Position numbers and translations under genes: made by a program. Shown here one piece after another: positions 19,290 to 41,723 of a stretch of 41,723 nucleotides of DNA. Position 1 is the first letter of the stretch, and each line of letters opens with the position of its first letter. The stretch comes from a virus. The notes under the pieces are model-generated. The model ran no database searches. It had not been told where the DNA came from and saw nothing but the letters and a program-made list of their open reading frames with translations. The stretch is from the IMG/VR virus record IMGVR_UViG_3300036652_002526, positions 1 to 41,723 of that record, one strand, 5' to 3'.

Positions 19290-19907
19290 CTACTCGACGT
19301 CCGGCGCCACTTCCTGGTCCGTAAGCAGCGCGCCCTGTGCTGGCCCTGTGAGGTCGGCCGCGATGCCCAGGAGCAACACCGGAATGTCCAGGTCGCTGAC
19401 GCCCCGGTATTCTAGGATCGCCTTGATCTGCTCGAAACAGCCGATGCCCGAGGACATCTGGCCCCGAACGAAGATACGCATCGGCACGACTTCCACGGCC
19501 GCTGAGAAATAATCGTTTTTGGCGAAGATCGGCATCTTGCCGAGCACATCCCAACCAAGGAAAGCGTATTTACCGAATTGCACTTCCAGTCCGAGCCCGT
19601 TCTTGACGCCGTCCCCCTCAATGAAGCCCGTATAATGCTCGCCGGTCTCCGATACGGTGGTCGAGTAGTTGATGCGGGGTTTGGTCCAGCCCTGCATATA
19701 AAGCGTACGGTCGAGGAGCGCCTTGTTCAATTCGATGGGCGCGTAGAGCATCCGCCCGGGCATCGTGACTTCACGGCTCTCCTTCGTGCGGTGGGCGGAT
19801 GCATCAACGTTCGCGATCGCGTCCTCGATCTCCTTCAGCTCCGCCATATACTTCCGGTTTATGACTTCCTGGCCCTTATTAAACGAGTACCGCGCTACAA
19901 TCCGCAC
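19290..19907 (-). CDS. Type II restriction endonuclease, BglII/BstYI-like
   Basis: 205 aa, close to BstYI in length. N-terminal MRIVARYSFNKGQEVI and central GLEVQFGKYAFLGWD match the BglII family. The catalytic arrangement D99-x8-E108-x-Q110 is the one described for BglII (Asp-x8-Glu-x-Gln), followed by VEVVPMRIFVRGQMSSGIG and a hydrophobic SDLDIPVLLLGI strand. It should cut a GATC-centred hexamer (AGATCT or RGATCY in known relatives), but the exact site cannot be read. It follows the methyltransferase on the same strand, with a terminator between them, so the two may have separate promoters. It defends the lysogen against other phages. Confidence 0.85.
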   Translation of the reverse strand: MRIVARYSFNKGQEVINRKYMAELKEIEDAIANVDASAHRTKESREVTMPGRMLYAPIELNKALLDRTLYMQGWTKPRINYSTTVSETGEHYTGFIEGDGVKNGLGLEVQFGKYAFLGWDVLGKMPIFAKNDYFSAAVEVVPMRIFVRGQMSSGIGCFEQIKAILEYRGVSDLDIPVLLLGIAADLTGPAQGALLTDQEVAPDVE

Positions 19908-20008: not shown

Positions 20009-21064
20009 CTAGGGGTGCTCGGGGGTGGCAGCCGTCCACAGTCCGGCATTCTCGGCCTGGACAGCGGCTGGCGCTGTCTTCTTTGGCTTCACCGCCTTCA
20101 CGGAGTGCGGCGAATCCCACTCGGCTGGCCGCTGGGTAATACTGGAATGCTCCGGCGGCTCATAGACGGGTCGGTCAATGGGCCGTGTCTTGAGCAGACC
20201 TTGCGAGGCGAGCATGACGCGATTGCGGGCGGTCGCGACGTACTCGGCGACAATCTCGCTGCCTGCGCCTTTACGGCCCTGGCGCACTGCCGCCACCGGC
20301 GTGGTGCCCACTCCCATGTAGGGATCGAGTACCCAATCGCCCGGGTCGGTCAGCGCCAGCACGAGACGCTCGATCAGTTCCACTGGAAACTGGCAAGGAT
20401 GGCCAGTCTTTTCAGGGTGGTTATGCTTCACATTCGGAATGATCCACAGGTCGCCGGGGTTCTTGCCGAGCGGGTTAGCCGAGTACTGACCGGCCTTCGG
20501 GCCTTTGTAGTATTTCTTGCCTGGATACTTCTGTGGCACACGCACGGCGTCGAGGTTGAAGGTGTAGCGGTCGCCCTTGGTGAACCAGATGATCGTCTCG
20601 TACCGCCCGCTGAAACGGCGTGAGCAATGGAGGCCATGCTCAAAGTGCCAGATAATGCGGTTGCGTAAACGCAGGCCGAGGCGCTTGAAAATGGGATAGA
20701 GTAGTGTGTCGAGCGGGTAGACTTCGCCGTCAGCGCTGATATGGTTGCCAACTTGCCAGCAGATGCTGCCCTCCTCGTGCAGCGCCGTGACGCACGCTTC
20801 AATGGTCCGGCGCTGGTCGTCGAGGTAGTCATCGAGCGTCAACTTGGTATGCCGCTCATACGTCTTGCCGATGTTGTACGGCGGCGACGTGACAATGAGC
20901 TTTTGGCTGGCCGGCGGCAGGGCAGCGAGCAACTCCAGCCGGTCGCCGTGGAAGAGCACGGCGTTCGCAGTCGGATCATAGTGGTCCGCGATCTGGACGC
21001 CTTCGTCCGCAAACAGGTACACCCTGTCACCCCCATCAGTCGGTCTGTCTGCACTCCCCGACAA
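20009..21064 (-). CDS. Beta-class DNA methyltransferase (N4-C or N6-A)
   Basis: Up to 351 aa. Motif IV TSPPYN (residues 59-64) precedes the SAM-binding motif I DPYMGVGTT (247-255), the order of beta-class amino-methyltransferases; SPPY is common in N4-cytosine enzymes but also occurs in N6-adenine enzymes. Pairs with the BglII-like endonuclease and should methylate the same site to protect the element. The longest frame starts at a TTG (21064); a GTG at 21022 with a GGGGGTGACAG ribosome-site-like sequence fits better. The C-terminal 45 residues are a low-complexity Pro/Ala/Glu tail. Confidence 0.88.
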   Translation of the reverse strand: MSGSADRPTDGGDRVYLFADEGVQIADHYDPTANAVLFHGDRLELLAALPPASQKLIVTSPPYNIGKTYERHTKLTLDDYLDDQRRTIEACVTALHEEGSICWQVGNHISADGEVYPLDTLLYPIFKRLGLRLRNRIIWHFEHGLHCSRRFSGRYETIIWFTKGDRYTFNLDAVRVPQKYPGKKYYKGPKAGQYSANPLGKNPGDLWIIPNVKHNHPEKTGHPCQFPVELIERLVLALTDPGDWVLDPYMGVGTTPVAAVRQGRKGAGSEIVAEYVATARNRVMLASQGLLKTRPIDRPVYEPPEHSSITQRPAEWDSPHSVKAVKPKKTAPAAVQAENAGLWTAATPEHP

Positions 21065-22319: not shown

Positions 22320-22643
22320 TTACTCCTCTTGCTTATCCAACAATGCGTATAGTTCTTCGGGGCCAATGACCTCAAGCGGCGCGTCTTGTTCACTATCTCC
22401 TATCTTCACGAATTGGGGAGTGTTGCGTCTACCAGCAGTACTGACCCCAACGGGCCGCTGGGTGTTGCCGCTGGGGCGCATCTTTGCTTCCAGCGCGGCC
22501 TGAACGAGCTCCTTGAGGGCCTGCGCCATTGTCAAGTCGTGCACCGCAGCGTAGACGCGCACATTCCGGCGCGTTTCTTCGTCCACGTCCTTAATCACCC
22601 AGGTCTGGAGATTCTCCCCGATGTTCTGTTTCTTGCGCGGCAT
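22320..22643 (-). CDS. Ribbon-helix-helix-type DNA-binding protein
   Basis: 107 aa from ATG 22643, chosen for the GAGGTG ribosome site 6 nt upstream. The first 50 residues show the strand-helix-helix pattern of CopG/Arc-like regulators (LQTWVIKDVDEETRRNVRVY, then DLTMAQALKELVQAALE). The remainder is a flexible region and an acidic end (EVIGPEELYALLDKQEE). It is divergent from the TraG operon, so it probably controls that operon and itself. A plasmid-type partition or copy-control role is also possible. Confidence 0.65.
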   Translation of the reverse strand: MPRKKQNIGENLQTWVIKDVDEETRRNVRVYAAVHDLTMAQALKELVQAALEAKMRPSGNTQRPVGVSTAGRRNTPQFVKIGDSEQDAPLEVIGPEELYALLDKQEE

Positions 22644-22734
22644 CTTTATCACCTCTGTTTCGGTAATCCCAATCAGCATCTTTACACATACTTCTTACCA
22701 CACCTTGACAATCTGGTACGCCACGTGCGAATGG

Positions 22735-22765
22735 TAATACTAATCGCGTTAATACGTGATAATAC
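22735..22765. promoter_or_regulatory. Three TAATAC half-sites in the divergent region
   Basis: TAATAC at 22735-22740, 22750-22755 and 22760-22765 (15- and 10-bp steps). Lies between the ribbon-helix-helix gene and the plus-strand operon, the place expected for its operator; proteins of that fold often bind direct repeats. Confidence 0.5.
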
Positions 22766-22827
22766 GATCCCATTCGCAGCGGTCTGTGGGAAGGAGGGTA
22801 AGCAGCGCTACTGCGTCCGGTTGCGGG

Positions 22828-22847
22828 GAGGCGTATAATCTCGCCTC
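22828..22847 (+). promoter_or_regulatory. -10 box inside an inverted repeat, TraG-operon promoter
   Basis: TATAAT (22834-22839) is in the 8-nt centre of the perfect inverted repeat GAGGCG (22828-22833)/CGCCTC (22842-22847). It is about 45 bp before the first gene of the plus-strand operon. No good -35 hexamer is seen, suggesting activator dependence. Confidence 0.6.
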
Positions 22848-22892
22848 ATTCCCCGCTTCGTCGATTGCCACCTTAGTGCAAGGAGAACGCAT

Positions 22893-23162
22893 ATGTCCCG
22901 ACTCTTCAGTAAGTCCGAAATGCTCAAAGGCGCCCTGCTGTACGTAGGCATCGGCATCCTGCTCCAGGTCATCGGCCTGTGGCAGTTCGCGCTGATCTTC
23001 TGGGGCGTGGCCGTCATCTTCGGTCTGCGCTACTGGCACCTCGCCACCCGCGATCGTCGTCTCGCGCAGGTGAATCAGGCCGCAGCCGTGCGGCCGCAGC
23101 CGGTGGCGCCGCCCAAGGCCTCGCCTGACAGCAGCAGCCTCGAGCTGCCTGAGTTCGACTAA
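22893..23162 (+). CDS. Small membrane protein, first gene of the TraG operon
   Basis: 89 aa, AAGGAG ribosome site. After a polar start, two hydrophobic stretches form a helical hairpin (GALLYVGIGILLQVIGLWQF; ALIFWGVAVIFGLRYWHLA), then a basic loop and a Pro/Ser-rich acidic tail. In VirD4/TraG systems the ATPase is often anchored by its own N-terminal membrane helices. The TraG-like protein downstream lacks these, so this small protein may be its separate membrane anchor (inference). Confidence 0.65.
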   Translation: MSRLFSKSEMLKGALLYVGIGILLQVIGLWQFALIFWGVAVIFGLRYWHLATRDRRLAQVNQAAAVRPQPVAPPKASPDSSSLELPEFD

Positions 23163-23234
23163 GCAATCCCTGATGGGGCGGATGGCTGCTTTCGGGCCAC
23201 CCGTCCCATCGGTGTCTCACAGGAGGATCTCCGT

Positions 23235-25271
23235 ATGCCATGGATGAATCCCGACTACTTCAACCGACTCAGTGACCACGAACAAGACCGGCTCTTTGCG
23301 ACGCACCTGCCCCTCGGCGAGAACCCTAACACCGGCGACGCCTTCTGGGTGCCCGATGAAGACCGCTACGCTGGCACCCATGTCATCGGCGTGCAAGGCG
23401 GCGGCAAATCTTCTTGCCTGGAAGGCTTGATCCACCATGACATCCGCCAGGGCAACGCCGTCATCGTGTTCGATGCGCACGGTGACTTGGCTGACCACTG
23501 CTTAGCCGCGCTGCCCGTAGAGGCTATGCCTCGCACCAGTATTCTGGATATGGAGGATGAAGATTTCCCCTTCGGGGCCAACCTGTTCGCCCAAGGGAGC
23601 CTCACGACAGATGCGGCCAAAGGCCAGGCCGTGGAGCGCATTACCCACGTCTTCGATGTCTTCTGGCCGGAGGTCATGAAGCAGCAGTATGCGCCACTCT
23701 ATCTCGAGCACGGCACGCGGGTCCTGCTGGAAAATCCAGGGTCAACGCTGCTCGACTTGCAGCGCTTGCTGCGCCATAAAGCGTACCGGGCACAGTTGCT
23801 CAAGCGTTGCCAGCCTGCGGAGCGCGATTTCTGGCGCCGCGAGTACGACCCGCTGAAGCCCGAGACGCAGATCAGCCGCGCCCGACCGTTGCTCAACCGC
23901 ATCCAACTGTTGACCAGCAGCCCGCTGCTGCGCAACCTCATCTGCCAGGCCCGGGCCATCGACTTCCGCGCGGCCATTGAGCATAGGGAGGTGCTATTCA
24001 TCAAATTGCCCACGACCACACTGGAGAAAGACGCCAGCATGGTCGGCATGGTCCTGATCGGGCAAATCAACGCGGCGGTCTTCTCCACGCGCAACCCCGT
24101 GTCGCTCTACGTCGATGAGTTCCAAAACTTCGTGACGCCGGATTTCGAGAAGTTCCTCAGCCAGGGCCGCAAGTTCCGCCTCCGCATGGTGGTGAGCCAC
24201 CAGCGCAGAGACCAGCTCAGTGAAAAGCTGCAAAAGGCCACGCAGTCGGCGCGCACGAAGGTCGTCTTCCGCGTGACGGCGGAGGATAGTCGCAAGCTGG
24301 CCCAGGATTTTCCTGTACGCGCCAGCCGTCCGAAGCCAGAGGACATCCACCTGTACCCATGCGACTACCTGCTGAGCCACACGCACCTGATGCGCGACGG
24401 CGGCGTACTGGCCTTCGTGGAGAGTTACCTGCTGCCGCTGCAAGGCGCGAAGAGCAGCCGGGGCCAGGTGGTAATCACCGAGCCCGAGTTCCGCGCCGAG
24501 GAATTTGTCAAATCCGTGGACGGCATGATTACCGGGGCGCTGCTGCTCGGGCATATGCTGAACGGCACCCCGCAGAAGCGGTCGCCGGTACGGGTGCCTG
24601 ATCCGACGCCGACCCTCGATGCGCTGCTACGAGAAGTCATGGCCACGGATAACCCCCGGCTGCCGATCCCGCCGGTCATCGTGCGTGGGCTGGCCAACTG
24701 TGGCGACTTCTTCTCGGCTGTGCGCAACATCGCGCCCGAGCACCCAGCGCTGCAGCCAGGCTTTACGCCGCCAGCCCATTTAATCCGCGTCACGAACAAC
24801 GGCTGGCAAGTCTTACGTGCGCCGGAGTCGCCAAGCGAGTGGCTGGCCCACTGCGTGTTTCTCTTGCGCCACACCATGGCCTACCTCGCGGCGCACCCGC
24901 TTGGCAACGTCAAGGAGACCAGCGCCAGCGAGATTGCCCAGCTGCTGACACGGCTGCCCAAACGCCACGCACTCATTCGGAGCGACGACGATTTCGGTCC
25001 GATCAAGACGTTCGACGCGCCGGAGCCAGCACCCGGCAGCGAGGGCGGGGCGGCCTACATTGTCCAAGCCAGCCGCGAGCGCTACTGCCGACCGCGTGAA
25101 GATGTCGAGGCGGCGTTTATTGGGGAAGACGCTGCTCCAGATGAGCCGGAAGAGGAGGAGAGCACGAGCAAGGAAGACGTGCAAGTGGTCGATAACTCAG
25201 GCCTAACGGTTGAGCCGCAGCCATCAGCCGAACTGCCCGACGAACCGGCAGTCAGTCGGTGGGAGCTCTAA
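23235..25271 (+). CDS. TraG/VirD4-like coupling ATPase
   Basis: 678 aa, start supported by AGGAGG. P-loop GVQGGGKSS (residues 52-60), a second strand motif VIVFDAHGDL (77-86), Walker B LYVDEFQNF (291-299), and the following sensor-like region FRLRMVVSHQRRDQLSEKLQ, all as in the TraG/TraD/VirD4 T4CP family (also the HerA/FtsK clade). These hexameric pumps move DNA or protein through membranes or load relaxosomes. The C-terminal 100 residues are acidic and unstructured, usual for substrate recognition. No other type IV secretion gene is present, so it may use the host's or another element's channel, or act in partition or replication. Confidence 0.85.
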   Translation: MPWMNPDYFNRLSDHEQDRLFATHLPLGENPNTGDAFWVPDEDRYAGTHVIGVQGGGKSSCLEGLIHHDIRQGNAVIVFDAHGDLADHCLAALPVEAMPRTSILDMEDEDFPFGANLFAQGSLTTDAAKGQAVERITHVFDVFWPEVMKQQYAPLYLEHGTRVLLENPGSTLLDLQRLLRHKAYRAQLLKRCQPAERDFWRREYDPLKPETQISRARPLLNRIQLLTSSPLLRNLICQARAIDFRAAIEHREVLFIKLPTTTLEKDASMVGMVLIGQINAAVFSTRNPVSLYVDEFQNFVTPDFEKFLSQGRKFRLRMVVSHQRRDQLSEKLQKATQSARTKVVFRVTAEDSRKLAQDFPVRASRPKPEDIHLYPCDYLLSHTHLMRDGGVLAFVESYLLPLQGAKSSRGQVVITEPEFRAEEFVKSVDGMITGALLLGHMLNGTPQKRSPVRVPDPTPTLDALLREVMATDNPRLPIPPVIVRGLANCGDFFSAVRNIAPEHPALQPGFTPPAHLIRVTNNGWQVLRAPESPSEWLAHCVFLLRHTMAYLAAHPLGNVKETSASEIAQLLTRLPKRHALIRSDDDFGPIKTFDAPEPAPGSEGGAAYIVQASRERYCRPREDVEAAFIGEDAAPDEPEEEESTSKEDVQVVDNSGLTVEPQPSAELPDEPAVSRWEL

Positions 25272-25275
25272 AGGT

Positions 25276-26118
25276 ATGAAAACCTTCACCGTCACGCCCA
25301 CCTACGACCTGCTGCTGCGCGGCAACGAGCGTGTTCCCTACGGCCTCTACCAGCTGCAGCTGCTGACCGCCGAACAGCTGACGCGGCTGCACTACCAGCC
25401 CGGCACCCTCAAAACCGTCAAGGCGCGGCTGAAGGCGCTGGCCGACCATGGGTACGTACAAGCCGACGCCATGCCGATCAGACACGAAACCGCCCGCGGG
25501 CTCCTGTACGGCTCGCCCTACTACTACACGCTCGGCCCGGCTGGTGTGCGCTATCTCAAGGAAGCGGGATATGCCACCGCCGCGAGCTGGCGGCCAAGCC
25601 GGGAGGTCGAGAAGAGCCTGCTGTTCCTGCAGCACACGCTGGAGATCAACGACATTCTGATCAGCGCCGCCAAACTTACGGGCGCGTACCGGCTGGAGCG
25701 GATGACCCACGAACGGGTGCTTAAACGCAAGCCTTTTACCTTCAAGTATGAGGGCACGACCTACGGCCTGGTGCCGGACGGCTTCCTGCGCTTTGAGACG
25801 CCAACGCGGCCACGCCGCTTTCTGCTCGAGCATGACCGGGCACGGGAGCCCAACGCCGACATCCGGCGCAAAATCCGGGCGTACCGGGCGCTCCTGCGCA
25901 GCGAGCCGTTCCCCATCCTGTTCACGACCTTCGCGGGCGACGCGCACCGTGACCGTTTGCGCAGTTGGGTACGGGCAGAGCTCGTAAGAGCCAAGGAGCC
26001 GCCGGAAATCGGGCGCTACTTCTACTTTGCGGCGTTCGCCCGTCCGCCCGGCCCCGAAGTCTGGACAAGCCCTGTTTGGTACACCTCGTATGGCGACCCG
26101 CCGCGAGCGCTGCTCTAG
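25276..26118 (+). CDS. Replication-relaxation family protein
   Basis: 280 aa from ATG 25276. The N-terminus contains a winged-helix-like region (LLTAEQLTRLHYQPGTLKTV, LKALADHGYVQADAMPIRHE) and the central part matches the replication-relaxation family (SLLFLQHTLEINDILISAAK; YGLVPDGFLRFETP; FLLEHDRAREPNADIRRKIR). That layout is also related to restriction-like folds. Such genes occur in plasmids and integrative elements next to TraG-like ATPases. It follows the ATPase by 4 bp, so the two are co-expressed and may form one DNA-processing complex. Confidence 0.8.
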   Translation: MKTFTVTPTYDLLLRGNERVPYGLYQLQLLTAEQLTRLHYQPGTLKTVKARLKALADHGYVQADAMPIRHETARGLLYGSPYYYTLGPAGVRYLKEAGYATAASWRPSREVEKSLLFLQHTLEINDILISAAKLTGAYRLERMTHERVLKRKPFTFKYEGTTYGLVPDGFLRFETPTRPRRFLLEHDRAREPNADIRRKIRAYRALLRSEPFPILFTTFAGDAHRDRLRSWVRAELVRAKEPPEIGRYFYFAAFARPPGPEVWTSPVWYTSYGDPPRALL

Positions 26119-26135
26119 CAGCTAGAAAGGCTTTG

Positions 26136-26357
26136 ATGATGGCAGATTACATGTCGGCCGCCGACGCCCATGATGCCGAGCTCATTTTGCGGCTGCTGCT
26201 CCACTACACCGACGAGCAGATTGCCGAGATATGGGAGCGGCAGCTCATTCCGAACGCGCTGATCGACGACGTGCGGGTAGCGGCGCATGAGCAAGGGCTC
26301 GCCTACGTCGGGCGCCTACTGGACGAGGATCTAAGAAACCGGGGGATACGGACATGA
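26136..26357 (+). CDS. Small acidic protein in the TraG operon
   Basis: 73 aa, GAAAGG ribosome site. Helical (HDAELILRLLLHYTDEQIAE; LIDDVRVAAHEQGLAYVGRL). No family recognised. Overlaps the next gene's start by 4 nt (ATGA), so it is coupled to the HTH protein. Confidence 0.5.
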   Translation: MMADYMSAADAHDAELILRLLLHYTDEQIAEIWERQLIPNALIDDVRVAAHEQGLAYVGRLLDEDLRNRGIRT

Positions 26358-26548
26358 AACAACAAGGACGCGAGCCGCCCGTGCTCGTCACCGTCGAAGA
26401 AGCTGCGCGGATTCTGAGCATCGGCAGGACAGCCTGCTACATGCTGGTACTCAAAGGTAAGCTCCAGAGCGTCAAGATCGGTAGAAGCCGCAGGGTCGTG
26501 CTCAGCTCGCTGCAGGAGTTCATCACGCAGCAGCTGGAAAGTGAGTAA
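26354..26548 (+). CDS. Excisionase-like helix-turn-helix protein
   Basis: 64 aa. MerR/excisionase-type HTH (LVTVEEAARILSIGRTACYM, then VLKGKLQSVKIGRSRRVVLS) over nearly the full length, typical of the excisionase/HTH_17 family. Placed about 0.8 kb from the integrase, it is the natural candidate for the directionality factor, or a regulator of the operon. Overlaps the next gene by 8 bp. Confidence 0.8.
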   Translation: MKQQGREPPVLVTVEEAARILSIGRTACYMLVLKGKLQSVKIGRSRRVVLSSLQEFITQQLESE

Positions 26549-26930
26549 GATCATGGCAACCGTAGTGGAGTATGCGACGACGGCAGCGATGGGGCTGCTG
26601 GAGCAGCTGCCACCCACCGACAAGCGGACCTACCGGCGGCCACTAAAAGAGCTAAAGGAGTATATAGGCGCGGGCATCACCACCTACATCTTGTCGCGCT
26701 ACACTGAACCGGCGTCAGGCAGGGGATGGCTCGGACGGCGGCGGCAAGTAGCGGCGGTGCGGAAGCACACCGACTGCCACGCCAAGCAGCCGGAGGTAAC
26801 GATACAGCGCTTCCTCGACGACTACATCCCCAACTGGCCAGTGTTCGCGACGTACTACCTCAATCAGGAGCGTTTCCTGTGGGAAGAGTGGCTGCTCGCG
26901 CTGACCGAAGAGGAAGCAGAGGACGCGTAG
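26541..26930 (+). CDS. Last gene of the TraG operon, unknown
   Basis: Up to 129 aa (GTG 26541; ATG 26553 also possible). Mixed alpha, aromatic-rich end (IPNWPVFATYYLNQERFLWE, ending LALTEEEAEDA). No known domain. Its stop is followed by a long hairpin that terminates the convergent sponge gene. Confidence 0.5.
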   Translation: MSKIMATVVEYATTAAMGLLEQLPPTDKRTYRRPLKELKEYIGAGITTYILSRYTEPASGRGWLGRRRQVAAVRKHTDCHAKQPEVTIQRFLDDYIPNWPVFATYYLNQERFLWEEWLLALTEEEAEDA

Positions 26931-27013: not shown

Positions 27014-27271
27014 CTACAGATTCCAAGTGGCGGCTTTGACAGCCCACATCTGAGCCTCTTGAGCGCGTGAGATGGCTAGTGCAAGCATGCGCTTCTCCTC
27101 ATCGGATGTGTACATCTGCACACGCATGTCGTTGCAGTTGTCGATAAAGGCCGCTGCTTGAGTTTTCAACTCCTGTACACTTTTCAACTCCTGTACACAC
27201 TGATCATTGCTTGGGTTAAAGGTCAGGCCAACAGCCTTTTCACCAAACGTCAGTTCCCGTTGTGCGTCCAT
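27014..27271 (-). CDS. Acb2/Tad1-type cyclic-nucleotide sponge (anti-CBASS/anti-Thoeris)
   Basis: 85 aa from ATG 27271, chosen because AAGGAG lies 9 nt upstream. GEKAVGLTFNPSNDQCV and the C-terminal RAQEAQMWAVKAATW match, from memory, the small phage proteins with the Acb2/Tad1 hairpin domain (KAVGLTFNPSG...; A.T..Q.AQMWAVKA.TW). Those proteins sequester cyclic di-/trinucleotide or glycocyclic-ADPR signals and so blunt CBASS or Thoeris immunity. Unlike the usual form, it contains a repeated VQELK segment from an 18-bp duplication, lengthening the first helix or loop. Divergent from the integrase with about 55 bp between, suggesting expression at entry or in the lysogen. Confidence 0.65.
   Translation of the reverse strand: MDAQRELTFGEKAVGLTFNPSNDQCVQELKSVQELKTQAAAFIDNCNDMRVQMYTSDEEKRMLALAISRAQEAQMWAVKAATWNL
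27163..27198. repeat. 18-bp perfect tandem duplication inside the sponge gene
   Basis: TTTTCAACTCCTGTACAC at 27163-27180 and again at 27181-27198. It keeps the frame and duplicates six residues (VQELKS / VQELKT). Confidence 0.97.
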
Positions 27272-27326
27272 ACAGTCGATCTCCTTAAGTTCCATCATTG
27301 TAGCACGCTCGGTAGGAGGCACCAAG

Positions 27327-28457
27327 ATGGCAGGCAAACGTGGGAACGGAGAAGGCTCATTGCGGCGGCGCAGCAGTGACGGCCTGTGGGAGGCACGGGT
27401 CACGCTAGCGGACGGCACCCGAAAGAGTTTCTATGGTGAGACACGGGCAGAGGCCGCCAAGAAGATGGCGGAGGCGCTGCAGACGCTCGGCAAGGGCATC
27501 CCTTTAGTTGATGAGAAACAGACGGTCAAACAGTATCTCACCGATTGGATCGAGATCGTGCGGCCGTCTTTAGCCCGGTCATCGGCGTATAAGTACGCCA
27601 GCTACATAAAGCTCCACGTTATTCCGTCGTTAGGTAAGTTGCCGCTGGCGAGGCTCGGCGCGGTGCATTTGCAGAAACTCTACGCGCTGAAGCTCAGTGA
27701 CGGCCTGAGCCCGACGACGGTCAACCTCATCCACAAAGTGCTGCATAAAGCCCTAGACGACGCGCTGAAGCTCGGGCTGGTGCAGCGCAACGTCTGCGAC
27801 CTGGTTGACCCGCCAAGAAGAGCCCACCACGAAATGCGCCCCTTAAATTCCGAGGAAGCCAAAAGATTACTCGGCGCTGCCAAGGGCGATCGGCTAGAAA
27901 CGCTGCTGCTCTTAGCCTTAACGACCGGCATGCGCCAGGGCGAGCTGATGGCGCTCAAGTGGCGCAACGTCGATTTATCCCATGCCACGCTCCAGATCCA
28001 GCTCACCGCCAAACTGGTCGCGGGCAAGGTGTTCGTCGAGGAGACCAAGACGCGCCGGTCGCGACGCCGGATTGCACTGAGCCCTATAGCCGTCGAAGCG
28101 CTCAAAAAGCACCGCGTGCGGCAAAATGAGGAACGGCTTGCCGCTGGCAGCAAATGGGTCGACAACGAGTACGTCTTCCCCAACACCGTCGGCAAGCTGC
28201 TCGATCCGCGCGGCTTACGCAGGCGCTGGTTTGACAAGCTGCTCCTGAAGGCTGGCTTGCCGCATATCCGCTTTCACGATCTTCGGCACTCTGCGGCCAC
28301 CTTGCTCCTGCTGCAAGGGGTGCATCCCAAAGTCGTCAGCGAGCTCTTAGGCCATGCCTCAATCGCGATCACGCTCGATCTCTACAGCCACGTTCTACCT
28401 GACATGCAGAAGGACGCGACGGCCGCGATGGAGCGTGTTTTTGGGTCGTTGGGGTAG
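27327..28457 (+). CDS. int: Tyrosine recombinase / phage integrase
   Basis: 376 aa from ATG 27327, supported by AGGAGG 7 nt upstream. N-terminal arm-type DNA-binding domain (RGNGEGSLRRRSSDGLWEAR), SAM-like core-binding domain (KQYLTDWIEIVRPSLARSSA), and a catalytic domain with Arg203 (TTGMRQGEL), His317-x-x-Arg320 (FHDLRHSAATLL), His343 (LLGHASI) and nucleophile Tyr353 (LDLYSHV). It integrates and, with an excisionase, excises the genome. Followed by a strong terminator and a G-rich repeat region that probably contains attP. Confidence 0.95.
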   Translation: MAGKRGNGEGSLRRRSSDGLWEARVTLADGTRKSFYGETRAEAAKKMAEALQTLGKGIPLVDEKQTVKQYLTDWIEIVRPSLARSSAYKYASYIKLHVIPSLGKLPLARLGAVHLQKLYALKLSDGLSPTTVNLIHKVLHKALDDALKLGLVQRNVCDLVDPPRRAHHEMRPLNSEEAKRLLGAAKGDRLETLLLLALTTGMRQGELMALKWRNVDLSHATLQIQLTAKLVAGKVFVEETKTRRSRRRIALSPIAVEALKKHRVRQNEERLAAGSKWVDNEYVFPNTVGKLLDPRGLRRRWFDKLLLKAGLPHIRFHDLRHSAATLLLLQGVHPKVVSELLGHASIAITLDLYSHVLPDMQKDATAAMERVFGSLG

Positions 28458-28752: not shown

Positions 28753-28842
28753 TTAGCTCAATATCATTGCGGCGAGCTCTGCATTGGTCAGTCGCTTGCC
28801 TTGGCGTTGCTGTTGTCTGATTTTGTCCGTTCGTTTGCTCAC
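28753..28842 (-). CDS. Micro-ORF of 29 aa, last of a coupled chain
   Basis: GTG 28842 overlaps the preceding stop as GTGA; AAAGGA lies 5 nt upstream. Basic peptide (KRTDKIRQQQRQGKRL, ending AELAAMILS). Supported by the overlap pattern and ribosome site only; it also lies beyond an intrinsic terminator. Confidence 0.35.
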   Translation of the reverse strand: MSKRTDKIRQQQRQGKRLTNAELAAMILS

Positions 28843-28886
28843 AAAAGTCCTTTCTTCTTAAAACTGTCTGCGGTATGGTCGGTCAT
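28839..28886 (-). CDS. Micro-ORF of 15 aa, partial copy of an upstream C-terminus
   Basis: ATG 28886, overlapping both neighbours by 4 nt. The peptide MTDHTADSFKKKGLL repeats the C-terminus of the 109-aa gene (ESFKKKGLLK); the DNA repeat CAAAAGTCCTTTCTTCTTAA occurs at 28841-28860 and 28973-28992. Likely a duplication fragment carrying a ribosome site for the next micro-ORF. Confidence 0.35.
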   Translation of the reverse strand: MTDHTADSFKKKGLL

Positions 28887-28972: not shown

Positions 28973-29298
28973 TTCAAAAGTCCTTTCTTCTTAAAACTCT
29001 CAGTAATTTGGTCAACTGCTTTATCATGCCCAAGTGCCACAAAGTAGTCAGTCGAATGCTCTTTATCCATGGCGAGGTTTCGATACTTCGGGTCAGCTAG
29101 CCAGTACTCCGGCATTCCCGACTGGATGGCGGCGCGGATAGCGTGCATGACTTTCAACCCGCTTACATGTGCTTCTGGTTTCGCTCCGCTCGCCCGTCTT
29201 GTGCTGTCCCGATAGCCTGCAAGATAGACCTTCTCAAGTATCATTTCTATCACGCTCAGCACATCGTTAGGGGTGTTGTCAGTTGTGTTCTTTGGCAT
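28969..29298 (-). CDS. Early protein, unknown function
   Basis: 109 aa. Helical (LSVIEMILEKVYLAGYRDST; DYFVALGHDKAVDQITESFK) with a lysine-rich C-terminus. Last sizeable gene of the leftward early operon, 2 bp after the 63-aa membrane protein gene. No family recognised. Confidence 0.5.
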   Translation of the reverse strand: MPKNTTDNTPNDVLSVIEMILEKVYLAGYRDSTRRASGAKPEAHVSGLKVMHAIRAAIQSGMPEYWLADPKYRNLAMDKEHSTDYFVALGHDKAVDQITESFKKKGLLK

Positions 29299-30897: not shown

Positions 30898-31100
30898 ACC
30901 TCCTTCCCCAACGCTGCCGTGAGCTGCTGGCGGAGCGTTTTGCGGTAGCCATACTCATCGTCCTCCGGTATCTCGTTGTCTATCAGCTCTAGGAACCAGT
31001 CGCAGAGTTGGCGTTTAGCCTCGATGTAATCGTCATATTGCCACTGTGCTGGCTTGAGTAAAATCTCGTCTATCTTGGCGCGTCTTTCGTCTGCGGTCAT
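30894..31100 (-). CDS. Small early protein of the MTxDERxAK family
   Basis: 68 aa: TADERRAKIDEILLK, then QLCDWFLELIDNEIPEDDEY. Its opening is paralogous to the 122-aa protein upstream (TDDERKAKLHDIL), so the operon contains two members of one family. Helical, acidic end. Function unknown. Confidence 0.55.
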   Translation of the reverse strand: MTADERRAKIDEILLKPAQWQYDDYIEAKRQLCDWFLELIDNEIPEDDEYGYRKTLRQQLTAALGKEV

Positions 31101-31900
31101 GTTTCGTCTCCTTCCGTTGTGTTACTGAGTGCTACCCTGCCAGCCTTGAGGATCGCATCAGCGGCACGGAAGGCGACCCGGATCGACGGTTCCGGCGGCC
31201 GTTCCTCATGCAGCCAATGGCGGATATAGCCCCGGCTGCGCGTCGCCGTCTCCTCATCCAGCAGCTCCAGCTCGTTCATGACCAGATAGGCCGTGCCTTC
31301 GGCCTCGAATTCCTTGACGCCCCGGTGGGTGGCATACTCGCCGATGGTACGGGGCAAGGTGTGTCCGAGGATGACGTGCCCGACCTCGTGAAAGAGCGTC
31401 TTGGTCGGATTCACGGCCACCGGATTGACCGCAATTTCCAAGCCTTTGGAATAGCCCTGCACGTTCAGGTTGTGGATGCGGAAGGGCACGCGCCGGATGC
31501 CGAGCTTGTCTAATGCTCTGTCGGTGTCCCACGTGGGCGGCTTGATCTCCGGCAACGGCTCACCATCGGTATCCGAGTAGGCGAACACGCCCCGGACGAC
31601 CTTGAAGCCGACTAACCGCGCGATACGCTCGCGCTTCTCAGCCTCAGTTTCATCGGACTGCTCCTGTACCATGACCGGCACGATCACTTCTTTGGCATGG
31701 GAGCCTCTGAGCACTTGCCGACCGAGTTTGTTCCAGCCCTTCATAGAAGCGACCGGCTCGCGTACGCCCTGCATCATGAACAGCAGCATATTGCCCAAGG
31801 AATACTCGTGTGCGCGGTTGTAGACGTTCCCCATATTGCCGGGAGCGGTCAACGCCTCTTCCATGAGACGGTTCCAGTCTAGCTTAGGCTTTTCGGGCAT
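31097..31900 (-). CDS. ArdC-like antirestriction / zincin protein
   Basis: About 267 aa (ATG 31900; GTG 31903 also possible). N-terminal ArdC-like ssDNA-binding region (NVYNRAHEYSLGNMLLFMMQ; SMKGWNKLGRQVLRGSHAKE), then a metallopeptidase domain with HEVGHVILGH (His172, Glu173, His176) and a downstream Glu in KEFEAEGTAYLVMNE as the third ligand. ArdC-type proteins protect incoming DNA from restriction during transfer. Its place in an early operon fits protection on entry. Overlaps the 122-aa gene by 17 bp. Confidence 0.82.
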   Translation of the reverse strand: MPEKPKLDWNRLMEEALTAPGNMGNVYNRAHEYSLGNMLLFMMQGVREPVASMKGWNKLGRQVLRGSHAKEVIVPVMVQEQSDETEAEKRERIARLVGFKVVRGVFAYSDTDGEPLPEIKPPTWDTDRALDKLGIRRVPFRIHNLNVQGYSKGLEIAVNPVAVNPTKTLFHEVGHVILGHTLPRTIGEYATHRGVKEFEAEGTAYLVMNELELLDEETATRSRGYIRHWLHEERPPEPSIRVAFRAADAILKAGRVALSNTTEGDET

Positions 31901-32252
31901 CACCGTCCAATCCCGCCGCGCGTCTGGCGGCCGCGATCATATCTTCAGGACAGAGGTGCTCATCTTCTTCGAGCGCTTCCTGGAGATTCGGCCACCCTCT
32001 CATAAACCTGTCGTACCACTCCTGGCCGGTCATTGTGGGCGGATCGAGCTCGTTCATTAGTTGCTCCTTGGTAACGGTTCGTATCCCATATTCATTGATG
32101 TTGCGGTACCCAGCCTCCCGGTACACGGCGTCAATCTGGGCGACAAGGCGGTTTAGTATGTTATTGGCGGCGTCTGTCGTCCTAACTTTCCCGTAGTTCA
32201 GCCGATAGCGCAGGATGTCGTGCAGCTTGGCTTTGCGTTCGTCGTCAGTCAT
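31884..32252 (-). CDS. Early protein of the MTxDERxAK family, 122 aa
   Basis: Start ATG 32252 selected over an upstream one because it overlaps the previous stop (ATGA) and matches the paralogue's opening. TDDERKAKLHDILRYRLNYG, DAANNILNRLVAQIDAVYRE, then a C-terminal region with PTMTGQEWYDRFMRGWPNLQ. No catalytic motif. The short paralogue is 68 aa, so this copy has an added C-terminal domain. Confidence 0.55.
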   Translation of the reverse strand: MTDDERKAKLHDILRYRLNYGKVRTTDAANNILNRLVAQIDAVYREAGYRNINEYGIRTVTKEQLMNELDPPTMTGQEWYDRFMRGWPNLQEALEEDEHLCPEDMIAAARRAAGLDGDARKA

Positions 32253-41400: not shown

Positions 41401-41723
41401 CGCGGCGAGGCAGGCTGAGAGGGTCGTGTAATCACCGCCAGTCGGAGCGACAAGATGCGTATAGAGGATTTGTCCGCTTCCACCCGTACCATTGGCGGCT
41501 GCCGTGATGCGTCCCTTAGCATCGACGGTGAGATTGGTATTCGTGTATGAACCGGGCGCAACGGCTGTGGAGGCAAGCGTTGCCGCGGCGCTGCCGGGGC
41601 CGCTGGCCGTGACGTCACCCGTTAAAGCAGTCAAATAGTTGCCCGTGGGCTGCTTACCGGCAAGGTCAGATACCAGGTTCGTTACCTGCGATTCCGCAAT
41701 GTTCGGGATATCGGCGGGGGTTC
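38467..41723 (-). CDS. Giant beta-helix tailspike (runs off right edge)
   Basis: Open at the right edge, stop at 38467; at least 1080 residues. Order from the visible end: fibre module ([32 protein letters not shown]), a first right-handed beta-helix (GDTIFIKPGSYSEAGGTFAQ to ISGCTTNISDAGTGT, with repeated ISGNTI/VSGNTI turns), a linker, a second pectate-lyase-3-type beta-helix (VKDYGAIGNGSNDDTSSIQS; YFPAGTYKITATLN), and a C-terminal fibre cap (LTNKRITERIGTTTSS; NITSFTLSGTPTDGQDLLI). Such spikes bind and degrade surface polysaccharide. A 126-bp repeat links it in frame to the collagen-like fibre at the left edge, so the complete gene is probably one very long protein. The TTG at 41634 is unlikely to be the true start. 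Confidence 0.85.
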   Translation of the reverse strand, partial: TPADIPNIAESQVTNLVSDLAGKQPTGNYLTALTGDVTASGPGSAAATLASTAVAPGSYTNTNLTVDAKGRITAAANGTGGSGQILYTHLVAPTGGDYTTLSACLAAAVAGDTIFIKPGSYSEAGGTFAQANLTIIGAGDETVLLTLGANLVLSGNYLKLSGVTIDNGASYQTQIAGQFSTLTLNHIKGQASGYFNSNYYYNAYSNNIFEATSSAAVCFFGPRNRAVGNHFIAAHVSGGGVWLNADSTFSGNFVYRQSNNFGSSSPLLCTGGEWVSVTGNSFFGGDAAIFTSDFRCSFTGNTVYQAGSNGIQVVDGCTVSGNTIHMGYAGSGIFINDSVGGYGATVVGNTVTSSSAPLAGAIGIQVNTSGGYALISGNTISEVATGIQIGSGATATVVANNAISGCTTNISDAGTGTVYSLSSTNNLSDVASASSARTNLGLGSLATLSSIDLTANVGSTILPLANGGTGQITATAALNALLPSQAGNSGKYLTTNATNASWVTINKSFFNVKDYGAIGNGSNDDTSSIQSAINAALATNQGTATVYFPAGTYKITATLNCSSATSSASGYGVILRGDGHHASRIFKNSSFGVAVSWLGYQGPTFANQYGGMVDITVDGNASTGGLVQLNSCQQMFFRGCSFVGSNDVAWDINTTQDSYFSQITFNNCGSTSLPVINIYGSANGTSNMLWFEQLRVETFLNGAIWIKRGTGATGGGNNGFFFSQCKIENYPTVNGDFCVFDSYTQQLYMDQIFFSAGNYNTSYSTPFNAITFGSASASPGYNQASFTNIFMNTGPTANIGNSVININDSAGAMSGGILIDQIFMDATPNTGIVNINGATNLKFELGMITGSGTRITGDGSGTRYDITVSGGSMVYPGSGIAVSTGTAWGTSKAAPTGTIVGTTDTQALTNKDLTGAGNTFPIFNQNTTGSAAKLTTARTIAGVSFDGSANISLASTNLSDTASIAMLTSTQTLTNKRITERIGTTTSSAAPSVNTDSYDQYNITALAANITSFTLSGTPTDGQDLLIRIKGAASQTVATPTNVTNSGIASWIGTTVAGKTHTIGLRYDAAAAKFVVLAADATGY
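41595..41720. repeat. 126-bp direct repeat, right copy (also 3-128)
   Basis: Exact copy of bases 3-128 with unmatched flanks on both sides, in the same reading frame of fibre coding sequence. The assembly probably broke or joined at this repeat. Confidence 0.95.

Follow-up and report, generated by a model that had tools for sequence, protein, structure and literature searches.

A MOBC-type relaxase and coupling ATPase cassette beside the integrase of a predicted temperate tailed phage

The phage genome and its operon

The window, i.e., the whole stretch of DNA analysed here (41,723 nucleotides), is the entire IMG/VR record IMGVR_UViG_3300036652_002526 and looks like the complete, circular, ~41.6-kb genome of a tailed phage. 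It carries structural and packaging genes (TerL, TerS, MCP and scaffold) together with those for a tail fibre, a tail spike and an endolysin. The two ends of the record share a direct repeat of 126 bp (3–128 = 41595–41720), the typical assembler product of a circular molecule, which speaks against a broken or chimeric contig. Six intact ORFs on the + strand form one tight operon between 22893 and 26930 (Table 1). The gene content of the operon and its location inside a phage with structural genes, both put forward in the original prediction, were confirmed by the ORFs, the family matches and the phage genes. For the family matches, chance is no concern.

Table 1. Features of the operon and its flanks (positions in the window)
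Feature	Coordinates	Strand	Evidence and remarks
Small DNA-binding protein, weak RHH resemblance	22320..22643	-	Divergent from operon; FitA-like_RHH E 0.007, below cut-off
Intergenic region (213 bp) between divergent RHH-like gene and operon	22680..22892	.	Weak candidate oriT and/or operator
89-aa membrane protein	22893..23162	+	Hydropathy; hydrophobic hairpin; Pro/Ala-rich tail
678-aa TraG/VirD4-type coupling ATPase (T4CP-like)	23235..25271	+	Pfam, alignment, AF2 model
280-aa MOBC-family relaxase (Replic_Relax, PF13814)	25276..26118	+	Profile match; conserved D/E; ATG start after AAAGGT site
72-aa protein, no family match	26139..26357	+	ORF; overlaps next gene
Excisionase-type HTH protein (recombination directionality factor)	26354..26548	+	HTH_17 38.7 bits (cut-off 27); TIGR01764 excisionase 41.5 bits (cut-off 28.8); starts in ATGA overlap with 72-aa gene
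129-aa protein, no family match; last operon gene	26541..26930	+	ORF; start overlaps excisionase-type gene
Inverted repeat, 17-nt arms, 40-nt loop	26933..27006	.	Between operon and convergent Acb2-like gene; probable terminator
Tyrosine integrase (Phage_integrase, SAM-like N-terminal domain)	27327..28457	+	98.8 bits; phrog_1, E 2e-79

The inverted repeat behind the last gene is probably a terminator common to the operon and the convergent Acb2-like gene, and the integrase farther downstream appears to be the phage's own. Conflict genes (BglII-like R-M, Acb2-like and ArdC-like) are abundant in this region. No att-like repeats above chance were found flanking the cassette; the longest was of 11 nt, the same as in shuffles, and on this ground an att-bounded inserted IME was rejected.

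The base composition of the operon bears on two other accounts of its origin. Its GC content is 63% vs. 58% for the genome, and the GC3 of its genes (0.74–0.84) is close to the values of TerL, portal and MCP (0.80–0.83). An assembly chimera of phage DNA with a plasmid or ICE, a worry raised at the outset, is extremely improbable given the circular-type end repeat, the codon-position GC that matches the structural genes and the occurrence of comparable genes together in another, independent phage contig (IMGVR_UViG_3300021178_000422). The phage might instead have gained an IME, or its integration module, by recombination and make use only of Int and Xis, with the mobilisation genes as passengers. 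The higher GC of the operon would agree with such a captured remnant, as would the lack of PF13814 in terminase-related phages, most of whose contigs are partial. However, none of the ORFs is broken, their overlaps, ribosome sites and motifs have been retained, their GC3 resembles that of the structural genes and the flanks lack att-like repeats, so that we regard this account as very unlikely.

A MOBC relaxase would be expected to have a binding site of direct repeats, or an oriT, nearby. Upstream of the operon, a search for an oriT-like site detected TAATAC three times in direct orientation (at 22735, 22750 and 22760). When 22680–22892 was shuffled 500 times with dinucleotides preserved, a triple of this type turned up twice, a weak signal with five regions tested, and no nic site was identified in this segment, which can be taken as a weak candidate for an oriT, an operator or both. 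From its position, the product of the divergent RHH-like gene is possibly a relaxosome accessory protein or a regulator of the operon.

A MOBC-family relaxase and a coupling ATPase

The product of the gene described as "replication-relaxation" matched the Replic_Relax profile (PF13814) with 84.1 bits against a cut-off of 25.3, covering positions 4–180 of 191. With the same profile a CloDF13-type MobC reached 78.1 bits (the mob reading frames are disrupted in the CloDF13 record as deposited, and an intact homologous plasmid was used in its place), and CONJscan names PF13814 proteins MobC (PMC5357655). PF13814 is therefore equated here with the MOBC family, and the protein is, judging from its sequence, a MOBC-family relaxase; the earlier statement that no relaxase was seen was wrong. 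Its identity to the CloDF13-type MobC is ~16%. Residues D168 and E185 correspond to D148 and E161 of MobC and are invariant across the window protein, MobC and three others. They are presumed to be the acidic residues of a PD-(D/E)XK motif, a catalytic role suggested by a review on TraX, the family member from pAD1 (PMC12857230). The single-sequence AF2 model of the relaxase was unusable (pLDDT 33), so the winged-helix and restriction-endonuclease-like fold of the family is predicted for it from the profile match only. With the assignment to MOBC, what had looked like a coupling ATPase in unusual company becomes a recognised mobilisation pair of relaxase and coupling protein. Pairs of this kind are known from small mobilizable plasmids and IMEs; here, as read from the family matches, one lies beside an integrase in a phage genome.

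The ATPase exceeded the cut-offs of two coupling-protein families, TrwB_AAD_bind (24.6 bits) and TraG-D_C (24.2 bits). Its Walker A (GVQGGGKS) and Walker B (YVDEFQNF) motifs are present, and G52, G57, K58, D294 and E295 were invariant in an alignment of 36 sequences. The AF2 model was confident over ~residues 60–350 and had as its top PDB match TrwB of R388 (E 1.1e-8, prob 1.00), a local fold match with TM-scores of 0.36/0.53. HerA was also matched, ranking below TrwB. A tree of the ATPases was not used, because the window protein formed a long branch and may have been paired with MobB through long-branch attraction.

The HerA match is one of the points in favour of a DNA-processing or superinfection-exclusion module, in which a HerA-like translocase, a PD-(D/E)XK-type nuclease and a membrane protein would act on incoming or replicating DNA, cf. 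HerA-NurA and HerA-based defence. Weak PADLOC matches to mad8 and HerA and the abundance of conflict genes nearby point in the same direction. We consider such a module quite unlikely, however: TrwB outranks HerA, TraG-D_C is a relaxosome-recognition family and was matched above its cut-off, the relaxase and the small proteins fit no PADLOC model, and a predicted excisionase is encoded in the same operon.

Hydropathy revealed no hydrophobic segment in the ATPase, i.e., the N-terminal transmembrane domain (TMD) typical of T4CPs is absent, which together with the family matches bears out the description of a TraG/VirD4-like ATPase without its own anchor. T4CPs that have no TMD and are paired with a small membrane protein form a known subfamily (PMC7434980). 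Mobilisation by MobB depends on its TMD (PMC7431656), and a coupling ATPase devoid of one should therefore need a partner. The 89-aa protein encoded just upstream has a single long hydrophobic stretch (~residues 14–46), sufficient for a two-helix hairpin. Searches for families and relatives of this protein gave none, and other loci with TMD-less ATPases were inspected for a conserved small membrane protein encoded upstream, but none was seen. It is plausible that the 89-aa protein is the membrane anchor of the ATPase, with anchor and motor split over two genes. The set resembles TraJ/TraI of pIP501, where a TMD-less motor and a small membrane protein jointly make up the coupling protein (PMC7434980), although pIP501, unlike the window, is a fully conjugative plasmid that encodes a T4SS of its own and a MOBQ relaxase (PMC12857230).

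Similar gene sets in plasmids, IMEs and phages

No close relatives of the relaxase were found by tblastn in phages and plasmids, nor by IMG/VR scans with the window relaxase and three other Replic_Relax proteins, and the ATPase has only distant relatives (<=32% identity). The order of T4CP followed by relaxase is also found in plasmids of Sulfitobacter, S. fredii and Embleya, in four of the Pseudomonadota loci from an HMM survey and in CloDF13-type mobB-mobC. In the latter (MOBC1 mobilizable plasmids), as in the window, the coupling ATPase gene comes directly before the PF13814 relaxase, the key D/E residues are common to both relaxases and there is no mating pore. However, CloDF13 is a small plasmid and its MobB carries its own TMD (PMC7431656). 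Streptococcal class 8 IMEs (PMC5357655) have an equal functional set in compact order, i.e., a VirD4 coupling protein, a PF13814/MobC relaxase, Xis and Int. Their integrase is a serine and not a tyrosine recombinase, and the window differs further by its extra small genes and by being embedded in a complete phage genome. Mobilizable elements that encode their own T4CP are typically MOBC (PMC7434980; PMC5704250). The window holds the relaxase, coupling protein, Xis and Int of an IME together. Also as anticipated, a mating-pore gene is missing: the VirB4 family is absent from the window, as expected for a mobilizable, non-conjugative element, and no other T4SS family was detected among the ORFs scanned.

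Similar sets were also found in phages. The unrelated tailed phage IMGVR_UViG_3300021178_000422, which has portal and capsid genes, carries adjacent and on one strand genes for Int, an HTH-size protein, a VirD4-like ATPase and a Replic_Relax protein. Its portal is of an unrelated Mu type, the gene order differs from that of the window and its relaxase, unlike ours, falls under the curated cut-off (21.7–23 bits). Bacillus phage G encodes both a coupling-type ATPase and a Replic_Relax protein. T4SS/FtsK-type and Replic_Relax proteins are also encoded by Tyroviruses (gp17-gp18; genomes of ~160–170 kb), with ParM and RHH among the neighbours, and by the Bacillus phages Novomoskovsk and Bolokhovo, where the neighbours include TrbC/VirB2 and RHH; they were read as plasmid-prophage functions and MOBC was not recognised (PMC9703825, PMC9658697).

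These phages lead to the alternative of plasmid-prophage maintenance, by which the relaxase would nick the excised circle, either to start rolling-circle-type replication or to relax multimers, and the ATPase would pump phage DNA during segregation, with no conjugation between cells involved. This is how the authors working on Tyroviruses and Bacillus pumilus phages interpreted the adjoining ParM, RHH, FtsK and Replic_Relax genes (PMC9658697, PMC9703825). Microcystis phage Mwe-JY31, with ParA, an RHH-like protein, a T4CP-like ATPase and a weak Replic_Relax match encoded consecutively, agrees with it, and an RHH-like gene adjoins our operon as well. Against this, none of the ParA, ParM, TubZ or plasmid Rep families was found among the ORFs scanned, the phage encodes an integrase and a predicted excisionase, and MobB/MobC, the nearest characterised relatives, serve conjugal mobilisation. 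Maintenance keeps some credibility but we judge it unlikely.

A proposed role in mobilisation

The interpretation that we favour, with moderate confidence, is that the operon and the integrase constitute a CloDF13-like or IME-like mobilisation cassette of a temperate tailed phage, likely nicking and exporting the excised prophage via a resident conjugation system. We infer the nicking, docking and transfer steps, and the anchor role, as follows. Xis and Int would excise the prophage as a circle, in which the MOBC relaxase, perhaps with help from the ATPase and the product of the divergent RHH-like gene, would nick a single strand at an oriT close to the cassette. The coupling ATPase, held at the membrane by the 89-aa protein, would dock on the mating channel that a conjugative element in the same cell provides, and pump the nicked strand into a recipient. 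The idea of movement through the channel of another element, already present in the original prediction, is supported as such by the match of the cassette to CloDF13 mobB-mobC and the streptococcal class 8 elements, which are helper-channel users. More tentatively, and with rather less confidence, the phage may have a dual mode of life, producing virions and also hitch-hiking by conjugation as an excised prophage by means of a MOBC relaxase of its own and a coupling protein whose membrane anchor and motor are separate, with such cassettes recurring in unrelated phages under the name "replication-relaxation".

Gene transfer by phages and by conjugative elements is usually viewed as following two separate routes. 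Among P1-like elements, one study found that all but two phage-plasmids lacked relaxases and oriTs, and that these appeared mainly after the loss of phage functions (PMC10879196). If our interpretation is true, a phage with complete virion genes and an intact relaxase and coupling cassette would combine both transfer routes in one element, and could spread without particles, crossing receptor barriers via the channel of a helper. The finding also offers a rule for phage genomes: where a "replication-relaxation" gene adjoins one for a TraG/VirD4-like ATPase, the two should be taken as a MOBC mobilisation pair, which present annotation masks.

Phage genome and operon

The 126-bp direct repeat at the two ends of the window, which spans the entire IMG/VR record, is the usual mark of a circular assembly, so the window is probably a complete phage genome of ~41.6 kb. 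It codes for large and small terminases, major capsid, scaffold, tail fibre and tail spike proteins and an endolysin. The six ORFs originally predicted at 22893-26930 were all located there. They make up a compact operon in which genes have ribosome-binding sites and starts overlap with stops. Their codon-position GC resembles that of the structural genes (overall GC is 63% in the operon vs. 58% in the genome), which argues that they are real genes at home in this phage. A decaying remnant is unlikely since the genes are intact. The HTH gene product is an excisionase-type protein. No att-like repeats bracketing the cassette were found in the window, and therefore it does not look like an obvious recent insertion.

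Features of the window and of related loci
Sequence	Feature	Coordinates	Strand
Window	End repeat, 126 bp	3-128 = 41595-41720	
Window	CCAGTCG repeat cluster, inside tail-protein region	about 120-420	
Window	BglII-like endonuclease; N6/N4 DNA methylase	19290-19907; 20009-21064	-
Window	RHH-like gene	22320-22643	-
Window	89-aa protein	22893-23162	+
Window	Coupling ATPase, 678 aa	23235-25271	+
Window	Relaxase, 280 aa	25276-26118	+
Window	Small protein	26139-26357	+
Window	HTH/Xis	26354-26548	+
Window	Sixth operon gene	26541-26930	+
Window	Acb2/Tad1 hairpin-domain protein	27014-27274	-
Window	Tyrosine integrase, downstream of operon	27327-28457	+
Window	39-nt direct repeat	28842-28880; 28975-29013	
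Window	ArdC N-terminal domain	31097-31903	-
Bacillus phage G, NC_023719.1	PF13814 gene; gp155 (annotated VirB-like), gp156 (annotated MsbA-like)	85245-93336	
IMGVR_UViG_3300021178_000422	Int-HTH-VirD4-Replic_Relax cassette	L123:5272-10004	
IMGVR_UViG_3300021178_000422	Second TMD-less VirD4-like ATPase, 412 aa, separate from the cassette	L151:7620-8858	
Bacterium isolate AUK113	Two TMD-less VirD4-like ATPases, Replic_Relax gene	L052:9965-15373	opposite (ATPases)

Genes of genetic conflict lie nearby. The Acb2/Tad1-type gene, convergent with the operon and adjoining the integrase, probably codes for an anti-CBASS sponge (40 bits with PF24729, cut-off 27). The BglII-like endonuclease (49 bits) and the adjoining methylase apparently form a complete type II restriction-modification pair. 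The anti-restriction ArdC domain (28.8 bits) belongs to a family common on conjugative plasmids; it fits a conjugation-adapted element, although phages have ArdC too. The 39-nt repeat, whose copies are 85% identical and match exactly over the first 24 nt, lies at the ends of two short neighbouring minus-strand genes, probably through local gene duplication.

Relaxase and coupling ATPase

The original prediction saw no relaxase, but the protein that it called “replication-relaxation” is one by family, scoring 84.1 bits with PF13814 (Replic_Relax; curated cut-off 25.3 bits). An intact CloDF13-type mobC product, annotated “MobC family replication-relaxation protein”, gave 78.1 bits over its full length. 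PF13814 is the MobC relaxase superfamily of streptococcal element surveys and is recognised as such by CONJscan (PMC5357655). In an alignment of five proteins two acidic residues were invariant, the D in the “PD” motif and an E further along (D168 and E185 in the window, D148 and E161 in MobC), as was histidine H120. According to a recent review, MOBC relaxases are PD-(D/E)XK-related, and the prototype TraX has a winged-helix N-terminus and an oriT binding site built of direct repeats (PMC12857230). The single-sequence model of the window relaxase was of very low confidence (pLDDT 33), and its putative fold is assigned from the PF13814 profile.

The ATPase exceeds the cut-offs of TrwB_AAD_bind and TraG-D_C and keeps both Walker motifs (36-sequence alignment). 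Its AlphaFold model, confident over about residues 60-350, is best matched among solved structures by TrwB, the coupling protein of R388 (E 1.1e-8, probability 1.00), followed by HerA, Cag-beta and VirB4. The ATPase might instead serve a HerA-type role in DNA processing or exclusion; PADLOC returned generic ATPase matches only. No transmembrane segment was found in the ATPase. Coupling proteins of this kind with a small membrane partner are known, e.g., pIP501 TraJ/TraI (PMC7434980), and the transmembrane domain of CloDF13 MobB is required for mobilisation (PMC7431656). For these reasons the 89-aa protein encoded upstream, a hydrophobic hairpin carrying a soluble tail, may reasonably be taken as the anchor of the ATPase. 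It had no detectable relatives, and no comparable partner was obvious beside the other TMD-less ATPases.

The gene pair in plasmids and other phages

The order coupling protein-Replic_Relax was also found in CloDF13-type plasmids, on plasmids of Sulfitobacter, Sinorhizobium and Embleya and, by profile search of 299 genomes, in Pseudomonadota. PF13814 is rare (over its cut-off in 4 of the 299), and four of the examined loci had an ATPase gene adjoining it, three of these being near-copies in one genome. In the small-genome isolate AUK113 the two TMD-less VirD4-like ATPase genes have both a Replic_Relax gene and a plasmid-initiator-like gene nearby. The mobB/mobC reading frames of CloDF13 are disrupted as deposited (NC_002119.1), and PLSDB types this MOBC prototype as non-mobilizable; mobility typing may overlook MOBC elements.

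Among phages, IMGVR_UViG_3300021178_000422 offers the best parallel. Its genome of 46 kb encodes a capsid-E protein and a portal and protease of Mu type. On one strand it has four consecutive genes: an integrase gene, a small gene and those for a VirD4-like ATPase (31.0 bits with TrwB_AAD_bind) and a Replic_Relax protein scoring below threshold. Its ATPase and that of the window are only about 22% identical, so the occurrence is independent or ancient. In phage G, a PF13814 protein (90.2 bits) is encoded at a distance of about 5 kb from genes resembling VirB4 and VirD4; gp156 matches the window ATPase, so its “MsbA-like” label is probably a misannotation. Microcystis phage Mwe-JY31 has consecutive genes for ParA, an RHH-like protein, a T4CP-like ATPase and a weak Replic_Relax match. 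Similar genes are encoded by Tyroviruses and two Bacillus pumilus phages (PMC9703825, PMC9658697). Plasmid-prophage maintenance, the main rival explanation, is favoured by phage authors with ParM or RHH neighbours in their phages, but there was no Par motor among the window ORFs scanned.

A proposed mobilisation cassette in a temperate phage

The best reading is a CloDF13-like or IME-like mobilisation cassette carried by a temperate phage. Integrase and excisionase would cut the prophage out, the MOBC relaxase would nick it at oriT, and the coupling ATPase would link the nicked molecule to a mating channel supplied by another element, needed because the phage has none (no VirB4 was found in the window). 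Mobilizable elements that carry a coupling protein of their own, few in number and typically MOBC, are the model for this mechanism (PMC5704250). A weak candidate for an oriT or operator is the 213 bp that separate the operon from the divergent RHH-like gene; they contain three TAATAC repeats (2/500 shuffles), which is suggestive only, since five regions were tested. Downstream of the integrase there is another cluster, of GGGGTA repeats, which may just as well represent attachment-site arms. The component parts were already known; what is new, as recognised here from sequence, is an intact MOBC and coupling-protein cassette within a full phage, its coupling protein possibly split.
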